Shown piece after piece: positions 3,662 through 58,476 of a DNA stretch of 64,000 bases. Position numbers and translations under genes: made by a program. The stretch covers positions 1 through 64,000 of the IMG/VR virus record IMGVR_UViG_3300034107_000725; one strand, given 5' to 3'. The DNA is from a virus. Each line of letters opens with the position of its first letter. Within the stretch, counting starts at the first letter, position 1. The notes under the pieces were generated by a model, which ran no database searches, had not been told where the DNA came from, and saw only the letters and a program-made list of their open reading frames with translations.

Positions 3662-4783
3662 ATGAAGTTACTGGTAACCAGCGATCTGCACTTGAGTGAC
3701 CGTATCTGGAAGCATCGCCCAATTGAGGGTGACAGTTACCACTCTTGGCAACAAGTAGTTGATCTGGCGATTGATCATAACGTGGATGCCGTCATTCTGG
3801 CAGGGGACATCTTGGATAAGCAGGCTAATCTGGCAACGCCAGTGCAGCGGCTCGCCCAAGGTTTATCCCGGTTGAATGAACAAGGCATAAAAGTATTCTA
3901 CAACCAAGGACAACACGAATATCAGGCACAACCCTGGGTTTCGTTAAGTGAGACGGCAGTCTGGCTACACGAAAACCATATCCAGACACGCGAAGGTTGG
4001 AAGATATCCGGCTGCGATTATCAAAACGAAGAGAAGCTACAGGCTTTTCTAAAGCACCCAAGTCTTGAGGAAACCGACATCCTGGTCTGTCATCAGGTGT
4101 GGCTGGAGTTCATGGGTGAGATGGGTAAACCGCAGGGTGCGTTTACAGACATACCCGCCAACATCCAGTACCTAATTACAGGTGACTATCACGAGCACAT
4201 CTGTAAGAAATTTGGAGAGCTGGTCGTACTTAGTCCAGGAAGCACACACTTGAGGAGTATCGCGGAGCCCGAGGACAAGTTTGTATTCCTGATGGAGTTG
4301 GAAGACAAAGACAAAACACCAAAGATACAGTCGCTACCGTTGTACACGCGACGGGTTATCGACGTATCAACTAAACAAAATCCGAGCTTTGCAAAGCTCA
4401 AAGAACATACTCAATGTCTGGTTGATTCGGCAATTGAGTATGCTGACGAACACGGACTGCCGATACCACTCTACATGCCGTTGATACGGTTGACACATGA
4501 GAGTGAACAGACAGACCTCGTTAACGAGTTCCAGAAGACATTTGCGGCAACTGGTCACTTGTTTTACAAGCAATACCGCACAACCGAAACGGTTAACGAT
4601 GGACTGGAGATGCTAAAACATCTTGATGCGTCAGACCGTGTTGGTATGCTGAACTGCCTGGACAACTATGTGGATCAGAAAGAGAAGCCAAAAAACTACG
4701 GCCTAGCCCTAGCCCTGCTTCAAAGCCCTGACCCGGAACAGGCTCTACACCGCTGGATTCAGGAGCAGTTAAATGTTGGATGA
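3662..4783 (+). CDS. SbcD/Mre11-like nuclease subunit (T4 gp47 type)
   Basis: Calcineurin-like metallophosphoesterase that would pair with the SbcC-like ATPase downstream to process DNA ends for recombination. Metal-binding motifs are visible: SDLHLSD (Asp8, His10), LAGDILD (Asp49), GQHEY (residues 83-87, where GNHD/E is usual, Gln replacing the catalytic-region Asn), a CHQVW motif and GDYHEH. The length of 373 residues is typical of phage gp47. AGGAG precedes the ATG at 3662; a GTG immediately before (3659) is an alternative. The Asn-to-Gln change in the third motif is unusual and could lower nuclease activity. The last 11 bases overlap the methyltransferase-like gene. Confidence 0.9.
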   Translation: MKLLVTSDLHLSDRIWKHRPIEGDSYHSWQQVVDLAIDHNVDAVILAGDILDKQANLATPVQRLAQGLSRLNEQGIKVFYNQGQHEYQAQPWVSLSETAVWLHENHIQTREGWKISGCDYQNEEKLQAFLKHPSLEETDILVCHQVWLEFMGEMGKPQGAFTDIPANIQYLITGDYHEHICKKFGELVVLSPGSTHLRSIAEPEDKFVFLMELEDKDKTPKIQSLPLYTRRVIDVSTKQNPSFAKLKEHTQCLVDSAIEYADEHGLPIPLYMPLIRLTHESEQTDLVNEFQKTFAATGHLFYKQYRTTETVNDGLEMLKHLDASDRVGMLNCLDNYVDQKEKPKNYGLALALLQSPDPEQALHRWIQEQLNVG

Positions 4784-5471
4784 TTTTGACGTTGTTGATC
4801 TCGGCACTAAGCACGGAAATGCGATTGAGGCATTTTTGAAACGAGCAGGATCCACAGTGTTGGATCCTGAAACCATTGCCAAGTTCAAGCCCGAACGCTG
4901 TGTCGGGTACGAGCGGGAGTGGTGTCGAGATTACGCCAAAATTGTCCAAGCAAAAGGTTTTCAGTTTAGGCTGACAGACCTTGCACACGATGCCGGAATA
5001 GAGCGATTGCCAGTCGGTCAAGTGTATCTGGCTTGGCATTTGTTGGAGCATTTGCCGGATAAGATCTGGGGACAGAAGGTGATGATCGCAGCCTTGTCTC
5101 GCACAACCAAATTAGCCTGGTTTAGACTACCCAGTTTTCAACCGGACTCTAAAAACGGCGAAGGCGTTCTGAGGGAGATGGGATTGCGGTTTACGTGGAC
5201 TACGTGGTCAGGACATACATCGGCGTGGTTGGTTGAAGATTGCCTTAAGGCGATCAATTTGTGGAAAACGCAGCAACCTGGACGAGAGTTTGAATGTATC
5301 GTCAAACCGGCGGATTACATTCGCTCAGTCCGGGATGTTCGCGTCGTACCAATCAACTCACCTATTGATGCTACCGCGTATAACTTTAGGTTTGGCCCAA
5401 AGCCAAAAGACCACAAGTTGAAGACCCCGATCGTGGCTGCATGGGAAGTCATAGTCAAATTCAAGACATAG
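4773..5471 (+). CDS. SAM-dependent methyltransferase-like protein
   Basis: A 232-residue protein with a Rossmann-like start (VVDLGTKHGNAIEAF, corresponding to motif I), an acidic turn after beta 2 (CVGYERE) and WHLLEHLPD at residues 87-95, which matches the H-x-LEH-x-P motif of class I methyltransferases. The substrate cannot be told. It is placed exactly between the SbcD and SbcC genes, overlapping the first by 11 bases and ending 8 bases before the second, so it is co-expressed with a DNA-end-processing complex. A DNA or base target is possible, but motif I is weak (DLGTKHG rather than DLGCGxG). Confidence 0.65.
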   Translation: MLDDFDVVDLGTKHGNAIEAFLKRAGSTVLDPETIAKFKPERCVGYEREWCRDYAKIVQAKGFQFRLTDLAHDAGIERLPVGQVYLAWHLLEHLPDKIWGQKVMIAALSRTTKLAWFRLPSFQPDSKNGEGVLREMGLRFTWTTWSGHTSAWLVEDCLKAINLWKTQQPGREFECIVKPADYIRSVRDVRVVPINSPIDATAYNFRFGPKPKDHKLKTPIVAAWEVIVKFKT

Positions 5472-5479
5472 GAAACACG

Positions 5480-7627
5480 ATGAGAATTGAACACGTTGAG
5501 CTCAAGAACATTGGCCCGCACCGTCAACTTAGTGTTGAACTTGGTCGCGGGCTAATTGGTTTAACAGGACCAAACGGTGCCGGTAAGTCTACCTTGGTCA
5601 ATGCGATCTATGCTGCACTGACAAATGACTTTAGCCGGTTCTCCAATGTCAAATCTGACATCATCACAAACGGCTCAGGCAAGGAAGCAAGTTATATCCG
5701 ATTGACTGGAGAGCATCGTAATCAGTCGTTCGAGTTAACTCGCTGGTTACGCCCAAACAAGACTGAGTTCACTATTGGCGGTGTCAGCTACGCCAAGGCA
5801 AACGAAGTCAACGAAGCTGTCGCTGCCCAGTTAAACATCTCCAAGCTGGTGATCGACAAATATGTCTTTGTAGATCAGTGGGAGATGTTCGGGTTCTTGA
5901 ACCAAACGGGCAGTGAGCGGGCTAAGACGTTTCAGTATCTTTGCGGTACTGAGTCTGCCACGTTGATTCACAAAGTCTGTAACGACTATGTGACCAAAAA
6001 GAAGAACACCGAGATCATAGACAACAGTCTTGAGCTCGAAACCGAATGCACCGAATTGGAAGAGACTGTAGCCGGGTATCAAGACAAGTTGCAGGAATGT
6101 GAAGACGATATCTTGTCCGACGATGCGGTTGAAACCTTCAAAGAGATCATTAGTCGACAAGTCCAGGTAGAGGCAAACCGCGAAACTTTGGCCGAAACCG
6201 TAGCTACAATTGCTCGCCACAAAGTCAACCTTGATGCTTTCAAATCAACCTACGACGAATGCTTGGAAAAGTATGACAGGCTTGCGGGTTGGTTGGCAAA
6301 GCGGGGACTGAGAATAGCGGCAGCAACCGCTCTAATCAGCAATTACGAACGCTGGAAGAAGCTCAAAACGGCACAGACGCAAGGGCAGAAGCAGTTAGAC
6401 TTACTTAACAAAGAGGCAAGTCAACTTGCAGAATCTGCGGCAACCTACGCACCCAAGGACAAAAAACGGTATGTACCGTTAAGCAAAAGGAATACTTTGA
6501 TAGAGAGTCTCGGTATCCTGCGGGAAGAGCTAAAACAGGCAAAACGCGTAATTTCTTCCGAAGACAAGCACTGTTCAACATGCGGGCAAGCTGTTCAAGC
6601 GGAGTATGTACAAGAGCTGCGTGTTCTCTGTGAAGAGAATAAACTAACACTGGAAAAACTACAGGCTACCCTAAGCTATTCGGAGGAGCATGACAGACTT
6701 CTAAAAGTCTATAACGAGAGGCTGGACGATTTAGAAGTGCGAATGCAAAAAGCAACGGAACGTAAAACCAGCTGCGACGAACAGCTGGCAGAACTCAGCC
6801 TAGACTTCCAAGAAGAGTCAGGATACGAAGACGCCTTGCAGTTGATAGAATCCCGGGACAAAGCTGTACGGCAGCAACTGGACGTGCTGAACCGTAAGAA
6901 TGAGTTGGGAGAAAAAATAGCCAGGCTGGAAGGTCTAATCAAGGGACTAACAGCTTCGCGTAATCGGCTGCAAGAAGCCCAAGAATCTGGCCCCGGGCCA
7001 GGAGAATACGAAGTGGCTTTACAGTTACTGGATGAGCACGTAACGGCCAAGGCCTTACATCAAGAAATTTCGGGTGCTCAAAGCGAGGCAACTCGAAATT
7101 TGCAACGAAACAAATCCTTACTCAATAAACTCAGAGAACGCCAAAGCAGGCATGCCGAAGCTCAAAAACTGCTGAGTGTTATTGAAGAGGTTGCGGAGAT
7201 TTTCCACTGGAACAATCTACCCAAAAGTGTCTCTCAGGCAAACCTGGAACTGCTGGTCGAGGACATCAACGCAAATCTGGAGTTGTTCAACAACCCGTTT
7301 TATATTGATGCAGACGAAGACCTTACGTTTCAAGTTTATCTGCCAGGTAAACTGCCGGTTAAGGCCAAACAACTCAGTGGCGGACAAAAGGTGATTCTAG
7401 CAATCGCTTTTCGTGCCGCACTGGATCGTGTATTTGGCCATGATGTTGGTATGATGTTTTTGGACGAACCTACATCAGGGCTGGACGCAGACAACGTGAA
7501 TTACTTTCACGACGCTTTGCAACAGTTGGCCAGCAAAGTCGGTAACGATCGACAGCTGGTTGTAATCACACACGTTCAAGAGTTGAGCGGTGTGTTTGAC
7601 CAGGTGATCGAGATACGCAAGGACTGA
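5480..7627 (+). CDS. SbcC/Rad50-like ATPase (T4 gp46 type)
   Basis: SMC-like ATPase subunit of the recombination nuclease. The 715-residue product has Walker A GPNGAGKST (residues 30-38), a long coiled coil, a zinc hook CSTCGQ (Cys365 and Cys368), a second coiled arm, the ABC signature LSGGQK and Walker B MMFLDEPTSGLD. Length matches phage gp46-type proteins rather than the longer bacterial SbcC. The ATG at 5480 is chosen because it starts the conserved MRIEHVELKNIGPH segment, with GGAAA upstream; the in-frame extension to 5441 would overlap the previous gene. It forms the second half of the split SbcD-SbcC cassette. Confidence 0.93.
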   Translation: MRIEHVELKNIGPHRQLSVELGRGLIGLTGPNGAGKSTLVNAIYAALTNDFSRFSNVKSDIITNGSGKEASYIRLTGEHRNQSFELTRWLRPNKTEFTIGGVSYAKANEVNEAVAAQLNISKLVIDKYVFVDQWEMFGFLNQTGSERAKTFQYLCGTESATLIHKVCNDYVTKKKNTEIIDNSLELETECTELEETVAGYQDKLQECEDDILSDDAVETFKEIISRQVQVEANRETLAETVATIARHKVNLDAFKSTYDECLEKYDRLAGWLAKRGLRIAAATALISNYERWKKLKTAQTQGQKQLDLLNKEASQLAESAATYAPKDKKRYVPLSKRNTLIESLGILREELKQAKRVISSEDKHCSTCGQAVQAEYVQELRVLCEENKLTLEKLQATLSYSEEHDRLLKVYNERLDDLEVRMQKATERKTSCDEQLAELSLDFQEESGYEDALQLIESRDKAVRQQLDVLNRKNELGEKIARLEGLIKGLTASRNRLQEAQESGPGPGEYEVALQLLDEHVTAKALHQEISGAQSEATRNLQRNKSLLNKLRERQSRHAEAQKLLSVIEEVAEIFHWNNLPKSVSQANLELLVEDINANLELFNNPFYIDADEDLTFQVYLPGKLPVKAKQLSGGQKVILAIAFRAALDRVFGHDVGMMFLDEPTSGLDADNVNYFHDALQQLASKVGNDRQLVVITHVQELSGVFDQVIEIRKD

Positions 7628-53981: not shown

Positions 53982-54009
53982 TCCCCAGGAGGGAACGCCA
54001 TAATGCCAC
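53982..54009 (+). repeat. Leader/start-site repeat, copy 1
   Basis: A 28-base stretch with the ribosome site AGGAGGG and the start codon of the metalloprotease-module gene. It recurs with two mismatches at 54873-54900 inside the same gene. Confidence 0.8.
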
Positions 54010-56594
54010 CGCCAACCAAATATGGACCAAACACTCCGGCAAGTCCAGTTGCACCGGCTCCCACACCAGTCGCACCCATTCCGGCAAGTCCAGTTGCACC
54101 AGCAGCCACACGTGTTGCACCAGCAGCCACACCAGTCGCACCCATTCAGCACCGGCCAGCCATAGTACGTAGCACGCCGCAAGGTCTGGTTGCTTCGTTG
54201 GCGGATCAACTGCCTTTAGGGTATAAAAATGAAGCTCAGGCGGCGGCCTCCGCTTATCGGAAGCTCAACCCAAAATTAAATTGGCCTTCGGATATCTCAC
54301 ATCGGGCACTCAATCGGCAAGTTCCGGTGAATTACGTGTCAGAGTTTGATGATCCAAGTACTAACGGACAATACCAACCGGCCACAGATCAAATATCTTT
54401 GCGGGCAGGGCTTAAGCCAAAAGCCATGGGAACGACATTGCAGCACGAGTTGACACACGCAACGCAGTTCCAGGGCAATATACCTGTACAACGCAGTTCG
54501 ACTACGCAGCCTATGCTTCAAAAGACGATGGAGAGCCAAAACTACGATCCTGCTACGGCTAGATCGTATTCAAGCTATATGACGGATCCAACAGAACAAG
54601 AGGCTTTCTTGGCGGGGCTTAAGCGAAATCACTATGTACAAACGGGTAAGCATATACGAACTAAAGATGAAGCTCGAAAAATGCTAATGGACTTGCCAAA
54701 CACACCCGAAAATAAGGATCAAGAGGCGTCTATGGGTACTTTGCTTAGGGCTCCGCAACTAAACAATACACCCGAAGGTGCAGCGGCCAAGGCTCAGTGG
54801 ATTGAGTCGCTCAGTAAAATGCTACCCGGACTGGTCCAAGGTAACTCACTAACTCTCGGCAAGACCGCAAACTTCCCAGGAGGGAACGCCATGATGCCAC
54901 AAGCAGCTCCAAACGGTTTCAACCCAAATGTCTTTAGTCACAACAACTTCTCCGGGACTTTCCCGATGAGTCAGGCTTTGCCCGCTAAACCGAACCCACT
55001 GTCCGCAGCACCACAAATGGGTGGTGTGAAAGCTGATGCCAATGGCATTCAGGCTGCGATGGCCAAGCGAGGCTCGCAGGATAACAGTGCTCCTCGTTGT
55101 TCATCCGCTGGTGAGAGTAAGGGTGTTGGTTACAAGATGGATGATGAAGGTCACACGACTGGTGGCAGTGCGTTTAGCACACTTGACAAATACATGAAGA
55201 AAGCTGGGCTTAATAGCTTTCAAACTCAGTTTTTCGGGCGTCTAATTCAGTCTGGCATGAATGAAGCTCAGCTACATCATGCGGTTAAACAAGCTCAAAT
55301 TCAGTTTGGCGAAAAGGTTGCCAGCGAACTGGTTGACGGATTGGAAAAGCTGGCGGTTACACCTTTCTCAGGTGCGGGTCGTCTGGCAAGAGAATTTGGC
55401 ACTGATTTGCTTAACACAGGAACGCGATATGCCGGTAATGCGATTAACGGTATTGGCGGGTTTGCCAGAGGTTTAGTGGGCAAGAAAGTTGCTCCCGGAG
55501 CGTCCGAGATAGGAGCCATGGCACAGCAGGCAGGACGTAAAGCAAAAACGCTCGGTCGTAAGTATGTGATAAATCAGGACGTGGGTACAGGCATGGCAAC
55601 CGGTGCCTTTAACCCGTACACCAGTACGCTATACGACGAACAGGGAAATCTGGACTTAGCCACTACGGCTCGCAATGCAGCCCTTGGTGGATTGGCTGGC
55701 GGTGTTGTGAAGCAAACTCCACTAAGGTGGAACGCAAGACAACGCCAGGAGCAGCTGATGGCAGGCAGCGGTATTGGGCTTGCTGGAGGACATTTGGCAA
55801 ACGCGTTAGGTGCCGATGTTGATCCGACGCGAGCGGCTCAAATTGGAGGTGCTGCGGGTTTACTTCCTCGCAACATCAGAGGCAGGAACATGTCAAAAGT
55901 TATGCCAAAATTTGATCCTACGGACATCGGTGCCCAGGCAAAGAATGTAAGGGCAGCTGGCCGTTACGCTCGTGACGCAGCTAAAAACGCTCCGGAAGGT
56001 AGTTTGGCAAAGGCTACAATGATTGGCGGCGGTTTGGGGCTGGGCGTAGGTATGCCTATGGCAACTTATGCAGGGCTTTCCCAGATGGGGACCAACGCAG
56101 GAAATGCAGCCATGCAGCAGCCTGAAGTGCAATCAACTCTAAAAAGGTTAAATGCTACACAACAACAGGTGCAGCAAGTTGCAGACAAGGTAAACCGGTT
56201 TGCCGCCCCGTTTCAGGATGACAAAGGCCAGTTCGATCTCATGGGCGGGCTTAGACGCCAGCTCGGTTTAGGCGAAGGCGGCACTGGGTTGGGTGCTGTG
56301 GGTGACTACTTGCGACAAAATCCACAGCTGGCCTCTGCCGGTTTGTTGAGCTTGTTGGGCATGGGTACTGGTTACATGGCTGGCGGTGGGCGTGGTGCGG
56401 CTTTGGGCGGCCTGTCTGCTCCTTTGCTAAACTACTTGGTGCAGTCACAACTTGGCGGAAATACCGCACCTGACATAGCTGGTACAAACCAAGCCGCAGC
56501 TCCTGCGGCTTCAGCAACTCCCGGCGTAGGTGAGTTTGACAGGAATCGGGAGAATGAAATCGTACAGCAACAACTCGGCTATAGTCCTAACTAA
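54003..56594 (+). CDS. Metalloprotease-module glycine-rich virion protein
   Basis: An 863-residue protein. Residues ~10-50 are Pro/Ala/Val tandem repeats. Residues ~55-290 carry LQHELTHATQF (HExxH; His148, Glu149, His152) and TDPTEQEAF (Glu198 or Glu200 as third ligand), as in gluzincins. From residue 297 a second part begins at an in-frame ATG with its own ribosome site, which copies the leader of the whole gene. This C-terminal part has SF-FGRLIQ-type helices and Gly-rich hydrophobic stretches (IGGGLGLGVGM, LLGMGTGYMAGGG) as in the other glycine-zipper proteins. It may cut host wall or virion proteins during entry. The internal start could give a ~567-residue isoform. Confidence 0.78.
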   Translation: MPPPTKYGPNTPASPVAPAPTPVAPIPASPVAPAATRVAPAATPVAPIQHRPAIVRSTPQGLVASLADQLPLGYKNEAQAAASAYRKLNPKLNWPSDISHRALNRQVPVNYVSEFDDPSTNGQYQPATDQISLRAGLKPKAMGTTLQHELTHATQFQGNIPVQRSSTTQPMLQKTMESQNYDPATARSYSSYMTDPTEQEAFLAGLKRNHYVQTGKHIRTKDEARKMLMDLPNTPENKDQEASMGTLLRAPQLNNTPEGAAAKAQWIESLSKMLPGLVQGNSLTLGKTANFPGGNAMMPQAAPNGFNPNVFSHNNFSGTFPMSQALPAKPNPLSAAPQMGGVKADANGIQAAMAKRGSQDNSAPRCSSAGESKGVGYKMDDEGHTTGGSAFSTLDKYMKKAGLNSFQTQFFGRLIQSGMNEAQLHHAVKQAQIQFGEKVASELVDGLEKLAVTPFSGAGRLAREFGTDLLNTGTRYAGNAINGIGGFARGLVGKKVAPGASEIGAMAQQAGRKAKTLGRKYVINQDVGTGMATGAFNPYTSTLYDEQGNLDLATTARNAALGGLAGGVVKQTPLRWNARQRQEQLMAGSGIGLAGGHLANALGADVDPTRAAQIGGAAGLLPRNIRGRNMSKVMPKFDPTDIGAQAKNVRAAGRYARDAAKNAPEGSLAKATMIGGGLGLGVGMPMATYAGLSQMGTNAGNAAMQQPEVQSTLKRLNATQQQVQQVADKVNRFAAPFQDDKGQFDLMGGLRRQLGLGEGGTGLGAVGDYLRQNPQLASAGLLSLLGMGTGYMAGGGRGAALGGLSAPLLNYLVQSQLGGNTAPDIAGTNQAAAPAASATPGVGEFDRNRENEIVQQQLGYSPN
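54036..54146 (+). repeat. Tandem repeat, Pro/Ala/Val coding
   Basis: A 45-base unit is followed by a 66-base version with an internal 21-base expansion; both start CCGGCAAGTCCAGTTGCACC and end CCAGTCGCACCCATT. They encode PASPVAP and TPVAPI units in the N-terminal linker. Such repeats vary by slippage. Confidence 0.85.
54873..54900 (+). promoter_or_regulatory. Internal ribosome site and start (leader repeat, copy 2)
   Basis: AGGAGGGAACGCC and ATG 54891 repeat the gene's own leader at 53982-54009 with two changes. The ATG is in frame with the full gene (residue 297), so translation from here would yield a protein without the metalloprotease module. Confidence 0.7.
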
Positions 56595-56617: not shown

Positions 56618-57295
56618 ATGCTTGAGCTACCAACCGTCACAGCAATCTGCTACGAAGGCAGTCGGCTGAGTCCTGACCAGATTAAGTACTATGAATTAAT
56701 GCTGCGGCATGTGAATAGGACTGTCCGGTTCAACTCTATCAAGTTTTTTGCTCACACTCCCCACCAGTTTGAAGGAGTTGAGCAGATTGCCGTGCCGCAT
56801 ACTAGCCGAGCCGACTACAGTCAATGGTGCATTCATAACTTGGGAACATACTTTGACACGGAACACGTGTTAATTTTTCAGTGGGATGGTTATCCGCTGA
56901 ACCCACACCTGTGGACTGATGAATTTTTACAGTATGACTACATTGGAGCCCCTTGGTCCTGGAAGCAGCACCATAGATTTCGCCGATCAAACCCAGAGCA
57001 CCTGGTTGGTAACGGGGGTTTCAGTCTTCGCAGCCGTAAGCTATATCAAGAGCTTTTAAAGCACCCTGTAAGCAAAGAAAACGAGGATCTCTACATCTGC
57101 TGCGATTTGCGACCAAAACTAGAGGCCAACGGAGTCAAGTTTGCACCGATGGACGTAGCCAAGCGGTTTGCCGTTGAGGTGCAGCTTTCCCCTGAGCACA
57201 CGATAACAAATACTTTTGGGTTTCACGGTGGGCATAAAAGCTGGGTCGAAGCCATACCATCATACCCACAGTATGCGAACAACTTCCTGCCGTGA
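56618..57295 (+). CDS. DUF5672 glycosyltransferase-like
   Basis: A 225-residue protein of the DUF5672 family: VLIFQWDGYPLNP, FLQYDYIGAPWSWK, VGNGGFSLRSRKLYQ and the C-terminal FGFHGGHKSW are its hallmark blocks. The family is widespread in bacterial glycan loci and in phages and is thought to be GT-A glycosyltransferases. AGGAGA precedes the ATG. A decayed copy of its C-terminal end follows at 57292-57363. Confidence 0.83.
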   Translation: MLELPTVTAICYEGSRLSPDQIKYYELMLRHVNRTVRFNSIKFFAHTPHQFEGVEQIAVPHTSRADYSQWCIHNLGTYFDTEHVLIFQWDGYPLNPHLWTDEFLQYDYIGAPWSWKQHHRFRRSNPEHLVGNGGFSLRSRKLYQELLKHPVSKENEDLYICCDLRPKLEANGVKFAPMDVAKRFAVEVQLSPEHTITNTFGFHGGHKSWVEAIPSYPQYANNFLP

Positions 57296-57363
57296 GTAAA
57301 ATCGCAGCTTATTTCAGATTTCATGGTGGACATGGAAGTCGGATTGAGGCTATAAATACGTAG
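57292..57363 (+). pseudogene. Decayed duplicate of DUF5672 C-terminus
   Basis: Directly after the DUF5672 stop, one frame reads YFRFHGGHGSRIEAINT and then TAG, matching the end of the gene before it (TFGFHGGHKSWVEAIPSY). So this 72-base piece is the remnant of a second copy of the gene's 3' end, the rest of which is gone. Confidence 0.7.
57327..57356 (+). promoter_or_regulatory. Candidate promoter of the non-coding RNA
   Basis: TGGACA (57327-57332) and TATAAA (57351-57356) are five-of-six matches to the sigma70 consensus with an 18-base spacer. It lies in the decayed gene remnant, so it may also be a chance match. Confidence 0.45.
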
Positions 57364-57743
57364 TCGCAATACACGGGAAGAGTCTTCCACTATGACCTTG
57401 ACCTGCGAAGATGAGTGAGTAGCCAGCTGGGGTGAGGCGGGTCTCTCAATTACCGGACTACACCAGCTGGTAGGTTGTTTGTCTTATCTTCAGGACAAAT
57501 AACAGGACGTTGCCGGAGGGAACACCTCGCTAACGACGTCTCGGGCAACTGTAACGTGATGGATCCATGGAAGTTTTGACTCCTCCGGGTCTCCTTTTGC
57601 TTCCCCGTCACAAACTTGGAGCCGCTATCGCTCGCAGACGATATGCTTCGACTGAGGTAAAGCCCAAAAGGCCGATGCCAGGTGTGGTTGCCTAGCTCAT
57701 CTTTTCTTCTTCAGCTGCAGCTTCGGCTGCAGCTTTTTCTTTT
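57363..57743 (+). ncRNA. Candidate structured RNA, about 380 nt
   Basis: This gap of ~330 bases without a gene has many paired segments: a CCAGCTGG/CCAGCTGG stem (57433-57483), TTTGTC/GACAAA, GTTGCC/GGCAAC and a nested three-part stem of GTGATGG/CCGTCAC, GGAAG/CTTCC and GACTC/GGGTC at about 57557-57610. Upstream is a promoter-like site and the unit ends at a UUCG terminator, 57713-57743. I cannot match it to tmRNA, RNase P or 6S RNA by eye. GOLLD- or ROOL-like large phage RNAs are candidates for a search. The signals are independent, but no alignment supports the fold. Confidence 0.5.
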
Positions 57744-58414
57744 AAGCGGTGCTTGTGAGCAACACCCAGTAGACCCGATAGCCCTGAGTATCTTGTGCCT
57801 TCGAACTGACGGGCGTTGACGCAAACAAACCAGTCCACGATGACGGATTCCAGGCTGGTCTGACGCAAGTGCCGGGATGGCTCGATCACTTCAGTGACAA
57901 CCACGCGATCGCCGTAGTGTTCCATAAACTTACGTTGAGTATCGAGGTTGTCTGTGGCGAGAAAGAGCTTCTCGTCGGGACGCAGTTCAGCATCAAGCCA
58001 CTCAAAGAACTCTTCGTCACGCGTGACACCATCGTGGCCCGTTGCCGGTATCTTGTCGGTTCTACGAGCATGGATAGCCAGATAAGACGGAGTCAGGCGA
58101 CTCATCACTTCATCGATACGAGCCTGAGTGCGAGGTCGGGGAATCATATCGTGGAAGTAATAGTTGCTAAACGGATCGTAAGGAGGAAGAAAATCGTAGC
58201 CTTTGTAGTGTGGTTTTTTTGTATCGTCGGTGAACTCTACCCCAGGAATTGGTTCTAAGTGATCCAGATAGCGTCCAGGACAGTCGGCGTTGGGAACCCA
58301 GCAGACGACCAGGATGTTATTGTTGGCTCGGGAGCGTTGCAGGAAGCTGAAAAGAACACGTATACGGTCGGCAAAACCTGTAGAGGTCTGGACCTTGAAT
58401 CGTTGACCTGCCAT
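57692..58414 (-). CDS. Fucosyltransferase-like glycosyltransferase
   Basis: The second reverse-strand gene, 240 residues. TGFADRIRVLFSFLQRSR recalls the GLGNRL start of NodZ/FUT8-type fucosyltransferases, YLAIHARRTDK the HxRRTD GDP-fucose site, and FLATDN the later motif, followed by ARQFEGTRYSGLSGL. The ATG at 58414 has AGGAGA upstream and starts after a good promoter, so the in-frame TTG at 58465 is rejected. The C-terminal tail (KEKAAAEAAAEEE) is encoded across the UUCG terminator of the + strand RNA. It would transfer fucose or a related sugar from a GDP donor. Confidence 0.78.
   Translation of the reverse strand: MAGQRFKVQTSTGFADRIRVLFSFLQRSRANNNILVVCWVPNADCPGRYLDHLEPIPGVEFTDDTKKPHYKGYDFLPPYDPFSNYYFHDMIPRPRTQARIDEVMSRLTPSYLAIHARRTDKIPATGHDGVTRDEEFFEWLDAELRPDEKLFLATDNLDTQRKFMEHYGDRVVVTEVIEPSRHLRQTSLESVIVDWFVCVNARQFEGTRYSGLSGLLGVAHKHRLKEKAAAEAAAEEEKMS
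57713..57743 (+). terminator. UUCG-loop intrinsic terminator inside a convergent gene
   Basis: AGCTGCAGC and GCTGCAGCT (57713-57721, 57726-57734) form a perfect 9-bp stem around TTCG, followed by TTTTCTTTT. It ends + strand transcription of the non-coding region while the same bases encode the C-terminus of the reverse-strand glycosyltransferase. Confidence 0.88.
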
Positions 58415-58448
58415 GATATCGGGGTCTCCTGTGACATGAATAGGGTGT

Positions 58449-58476
58449 ATTATAGTCCAGCTCAAGTCTTCTGCAA
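58449..58476 (-). promoter_or_regulatory. Sigma70-type promoter for reverse-strand gene
   Basis: On the - strand TTGCAG (58476-58471) and TATAAT (58454-58449) are separated by 16 bases. The expected start lies about 27 bases before the ATG at 58414. The -35 box touches a copy of the 13-bp palindrome. Confidence 0.7.

Follow-up and report, generated by a model that had tools for sequence, protein, structure and literature searches.

The window, a 64,000-nucleotide stretch of DNA corresponding to positions 1 to 64,000 of the IMG/VR record IMGVR_UViG_3300034107_000725 (an uncultured giant phage genome of 193,990 bases), contains near its end a region without apparent coding capacity, located between a DUF5672 gene that ends at position 57295 and a convergent open reading frame whose stop lies at 57692 (57692-58465, - strand). 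No ORF of 60 amino acids or more was found within 57296-57691. Upstream, on the + strand, lies a large gene (54003-56594) that encodes a mosaic protein, in which the N-terminal part is DUF6782 metallopeptidase-like in the window, while one other member of the family displays a NUDIX domain, and in which a central region and a glycine-rich, hydrophobic C-terminus are shared; this protein is possibly a virion-delivered enzyme carrier. No relative of it was found in cultured phages, and an AlphaFold model gave a pLDDT of only 36 and was not used for a fold search. The convergent ORF displays an O-fucosyltransferase-like motif (IHARRTDK) but matches the corresponding family (PF10250, O-FucT) with an E-value of 0.0018, below the curated cut-off, and was found only in the two records of this virus; its earlier designation as a glycosyltransferase is therefore plausible but weak. 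Elsewhere in the genome (record positions 84029-91332; 29-2440 and 4153-7332 of the segment L033), split RNA polymerase beta/beta'-type subunits are encoded, such that the phage brings its own multisubunit RNA polymerase.

A preliminary description of this region proposed a structured RNA gene of approximately 380 nucleotides, beginning at 57292, containing a promoter-like sequence pair, and ending in a UUCG terminator that simultaneously encodes the C-terminus of the convergent gene. The folding of the region is in agreement with the central element of that proposal: the + strand of 57296-57743 folds with a minimum energy of -164 kcal/mol, as compared to -138.6 +/- 5.9 kcal/mol for dinucleotide-shuffled sequences (z -4.3, with 0 of 100 shuffles performing as well), while the - strand is ordinary (z -1.0). 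The terminator, AGCTGCAGC-TTCG-GCTGCAGCT-TTTT (57713-57734), is likewise real; it consists of a 9-bp stem with 6 GC pairs, a TTCG loop and a T-rich tail, and lies within codons for ...KAAAEAAAEEEKMS at the 3' end of the convergent ORF. In contrast, the proposed promoter is not supported. While the sequences TGGACA (57327) and TATAAA (57351) are present with an 18-nt spacer, they lie inside a remnant of a duplicated DUF5672 C-terminus (IAAYFRFHGGHGSRIEAI; 57301-57360, + strand), which directly follows the intact DUF5672 gene, ends in a stop, and matches the C-terminus of that gene at 11 of 18 residues (E 6e-7 for the pair comparison). No equivalent of this pair was seen in the upstream flanks of the homologues described below, and the presence of a phage-encoded polymerase indicates that a host sigma-70 consensus may not be relevant at all. 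The sequence TATAAATA, considered as a T4-like late promoter, occurs only 3 times in the whole record and is not supported as a general promoter.

A direct blastn comparison of the region against phages gave no match, and the DNA polymerase of this virus is only about 25% identical to those of cultured phages. An identical stretch was found in another IMG/VR record, and the DNA polymerase sequence led to a series of related uncultured viruses (designated here G002, G004 and so on). Initial blastn comparisons against whole related records gave only chance hits, including a 17-nt exact match in G004 that lies in a coding gene and was rejected. The convergent ORF and the DUF5672 gene failed as synteny anchors, whereas homologues of the 54003-56594 gene were found in several of these viruses (G002, G004, G008, G010, G015 and G019). 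Directly 3' of that gene in G002, a 277-nt blastn alignment to the window RNA was observed, and the same gap in G004, G007 and G008 was subsequently found to hold the same RNA. A degenerate motif found four related viral records, the other record of this virus, and two bacterial genes by chance, and a gapped motif scan of all IMG/VR returned only members already known.

A covariance model constructed solely from G002, G004 and G008 (R1) was then used to search 1.22 Mb of sequence, including all of the window's own record. In addition to its three sources, the model identified the window itself at 57410-57701 on the + strand (full length, 116.4 bits, E 1.3e-32) and G010 (44.8 bits, E 5.3e-11), and nothing else up to an E-value of 10; the RNA is present as a single copy in each genome searched whole. 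Further searches with this model identified G009, G007 and G015 (E about 1e-10 for the latter), and a second model (R2), built from six distinct sequences, identified an additional lineage that was not used in its construction, G019 (E 2.7e-17), again just downstream of the gene homologue. One large related virus record (IMGVR_UViG_3300008448_000001, 204794 bp) carries a divergent 245-nt version of the RNA. G018 contains the gene with only a short gap and no RNA at that place, and G020 displays no convincing hit in the short stretch that remains before its contig end. These analyses place the conserved RNA core at 57410-57701, a length of 292 nt (or about 325 nt including the terminator) rather than about 380 to 450, such that the conserved RNA begins near 57400 and not at 57292, although its actual 5' end is not defined.

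The alignment of seven distinct sequences (the window and six other lineages) shows that the shape of this RNA, rather than its sequence, is conserved. Across that alignment 94.4% of pair cells are standard pairs, and 51 of 85 pairs change on both sides, as compared to 24.3 +/- 3.1 pairs in shuffled controls; no shuffle reached either value, and sliding the pairing partners by 1-3 columns reduced pairing to 34-44% and double changes to 8-13 pairs. For five sequences, the corresponding figures are 95.5% and 40 of 85. While the alignment used for these counts was fitted to the structure, the covariance models were tested on sequences that they had not seen. Furthermore, 71 of 80 consensus pairs are found in the window's own minimum-energy fold, even though the consensus owes nothing to the window; for G002 and G008, agreement with single-sequence folding is poor (about 30 of 80). 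G-U pairs (12-16 per sequence in four of five sequences, and 3 in G010) favor the + strand.

The RNA is organized as two nested multiway junctions. The molecule is closed by P1 (GATGAGT at 57410-57416 with GCTCATC at 57695-57701), in which 97% of cells are paired in five sequences and 94% in seven, and 3 of 7 pairs change on both sides. The first junction holds P2, P3, P4 and P5. The P2 arm (57422-57471; 57422-57430 with 57463-57471) is 96% paired with 10 of 12 pairs changing on both sides and is present in the window's own minimum-energy fold; the P3 hairpin (GTTGTTTGTCTT/AGGACAAATAAC, 57474-57503) is 100% paired with 7 of 10 such changes; the P4 arm (57505-57541; 57505-57512 with 57534-57541) displays 6 of 8; and P5 (57543-57693; 57543-57550 with 57686-57693) is 100% paired with 5 of 8. 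P5 in turn closes the second junction, which holds P6, P7 and P8. The nested three-part stem noted in the preliminary description (GTGATGG, GGAAG, GACTC and their partners; 57556-57611) corresponds exactly to P6, P6b and P6c (57556-57562 with 57605-57611, 57569-57574 with 57599-57604, and 57578-57582 with 57587-57591, respectively); P6 and P6b covary in relatives, with P6 being 97% paired and P6b 83% paired with 5 of 6 pairs changing on both sides. The P7/P7b hairpin (57616-57651; 57616-57622 with 57645-57651 and 57626-57630 with 57639-57643) includes a P7b that is 100% paired with 6 of 6 pairs changing on both sides. P2, P3, P4, P5, P6b and P7b are strongly supported, while the P8 hairpin (57656-57679), although present in the window's own minimum-energy fold, is weakly supported by comparison, as are the inner P2 hairpin and P4b, an inner stem of P4.

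An additional loop-loop pseudoknot (PK1) is formed between the inner 5' side of P2 (GGTGAGG, 57431-57437) and the inner 3' side of P4 (CCTCGCT, 57525-57531). This pairing is present in all seven sequences, and the helix is replaced as a whole between lineages (GGUGAGG/CCUCGCU, CGCAAGG/CCUUGCG, CGAAGG/CCUUCG and UCGACGUGG/CCACGUCGA), with complementarity within a genome being generally higher than across lineages; for the two shortest cases (G010 and G015), the individual shuffle P is not significant alone. P4b conflicts with PK1 and displays only 71% paired cells, and PK1 is preferred. A sequence TCCTT, located in the internal loop of P6 (57592-57596), is present in all seven homologues; a possible second pseudoknot between that motif and a J7/8 RAGGR sequence was not supported in G019.

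A PhyH-like gene lies downstream in both the window and G002 (29% identity), but downstream genes differ among relatives. A terminator-like hairpin was observed in G010, while G002 and G008 display no obvious terminator after the RNA. The 12-mer ATTCTGGATTTT recurs more than expected by chance, just 3' of the RNA in G002, G004 and G008, before another gene in each of them, and at five places in the record designated G000; some of these copies are coding (ILDF), while others are intergenic and perhaps regulatory.

Taken together, these observations support the proposal of a structured RNA that ends in an intrinsic terminator within a convergent gene, and appear to be best explained, with moderate confidence, by a stand-alone gene for a compact noncoding RNA of about 300 nt, found in a clade of uncultured large phages. 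Transcription of the + strand is inferred rather than demonstrated, and would proceed either from an unidentified phage promoter or by read-through from the upstream gene, stopping at the UUCG terminator. The finished RNA, in which the P2-P4 contact would lock the fold, most likely acts in trans during infection as a structural or binding RNA, either as an RNP or as an RNA-only assembly as in GOLLD and ROOL, although this role is also an inference, and no ligand, protein partner or catalytic activity is known. It cannot be the leader of a downstream gene (as would be expected of a riboswitch), because in the window the downstream gene is convergent and a terminator intervenes.

A structured 3' UTR of the upstream mRNA, which would protect, localize or terminate that transcript in cis or be cut out of it, is a less likely but not negligible alternative. 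In every relative with both elements, the RNA lies on the same strand 3' of the gene, often within tens of nucleotides of its stop codon, and no conserved promoter was found upstream of the RNA, so that it could be a processed 3' UTR. However, in the window the two are separated by about 815 nt containing a DUF5672 gene and a DUF5672 remnant, and the RNA nevertheless keeps its fold and its own terminator; its complexity (two junctions and a pseudoknot) exceeds what stability hairpins need, and G018 contains the gene without the RNA at that place. It is unlikely, though possible, that the RNA is a translation-directed decoy, in which the TCCTT/TCTCCTT sequence shown in the P6 internal loop mimics the anti-Shine-Dalgarno of 16S rRNA and binds phage or host mRNA starts or the ribosome: the motif matches the anti-SD core, and ribosomes are reported to bind GOLLD in pull-downs (PMC12286853), but a five-base motif is short, may instead form a tertiary contact, and is paired in the predicted fold of G019. 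A self-cleaving or processing ribozyme, intron relic or RNase P-like catalyst, which might be suggested by the size and the compact pseudoknotted fold, appears very unlikely, because no Rfam ribozyme, intron or RNase P model matches at E-values up to 3-5 in the homologues scanned in this manner, and because the RNA is intergenic and does not interrupt a gene. Chance folding of a decayed intergenic region, despite the adjacent gene remnant, is refuted by the covariation and by the out-of-sample model hits.

The RNA matches no family in Rfam 15, and no hits were obtained to RNase P, tmRNA, group I or group II intron, or HEARO models; literature searches, with incomplete coverage of subscription papers, found no description of it. 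We therefore consider it to be a new RNA family within the broad kind of structured phage noncoding RNAs, and very probably a new class of viral RNA. A more far-reaching possibility, which remains tentative, is that it represents an RNA machine, kept across a deep clade of large phages (with DNA polymerases down to about 51% identical to that of the window), that works in trans in a way not described for any known phage RNA. Because the phage carries its own multisubunit RNA polymerase, the RNA could also bear on how such phages organize RNA in infected cells.

Among known systems, the noncoding RNAs of the large phage PhiKZ that were found by Grad-seq, an intergenic RNA of ~100 nt and the first 180 nt of the p40 5' UTR, are shorter (PMC8545117), and for the phi29 packaging RNA (pRNA), another phage-encoded structural RNA, there is no Rfam match and no packaging gene was identified beside the element described here. 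The closest kind are GOLLD and ROOL, which are large structured phage RNAs of unclear function that assemble into cages (PMC12286853). This RNA is neither of these: neither model gave a gathering match in the window, or a hit at relaxed E-values in the window or in five homologue loci. GOLLD, an elaborately structured RNA of phages and prophages, exceeds 800 nt and often lies near tRNA islands, whereas the core of the present RNA is 292 nt and no tRNA gene was found in the window or in the rest of the record; ROOL, a structured phage and prophage RNA with multiple pseudoknots and no known protein partner, is about twice as long, and again no tRNAs lie near the present RNA. Few large structured phage RNAs are known, and while GOLLD and ROOL turned out to form unexpected RNA-only cages, the RNA described here is an unrelated family, with a comparative secondary structure that includes a pseudoknot, an explicit covariance model, seven distinct sequences and a fixed genomic neighbor.
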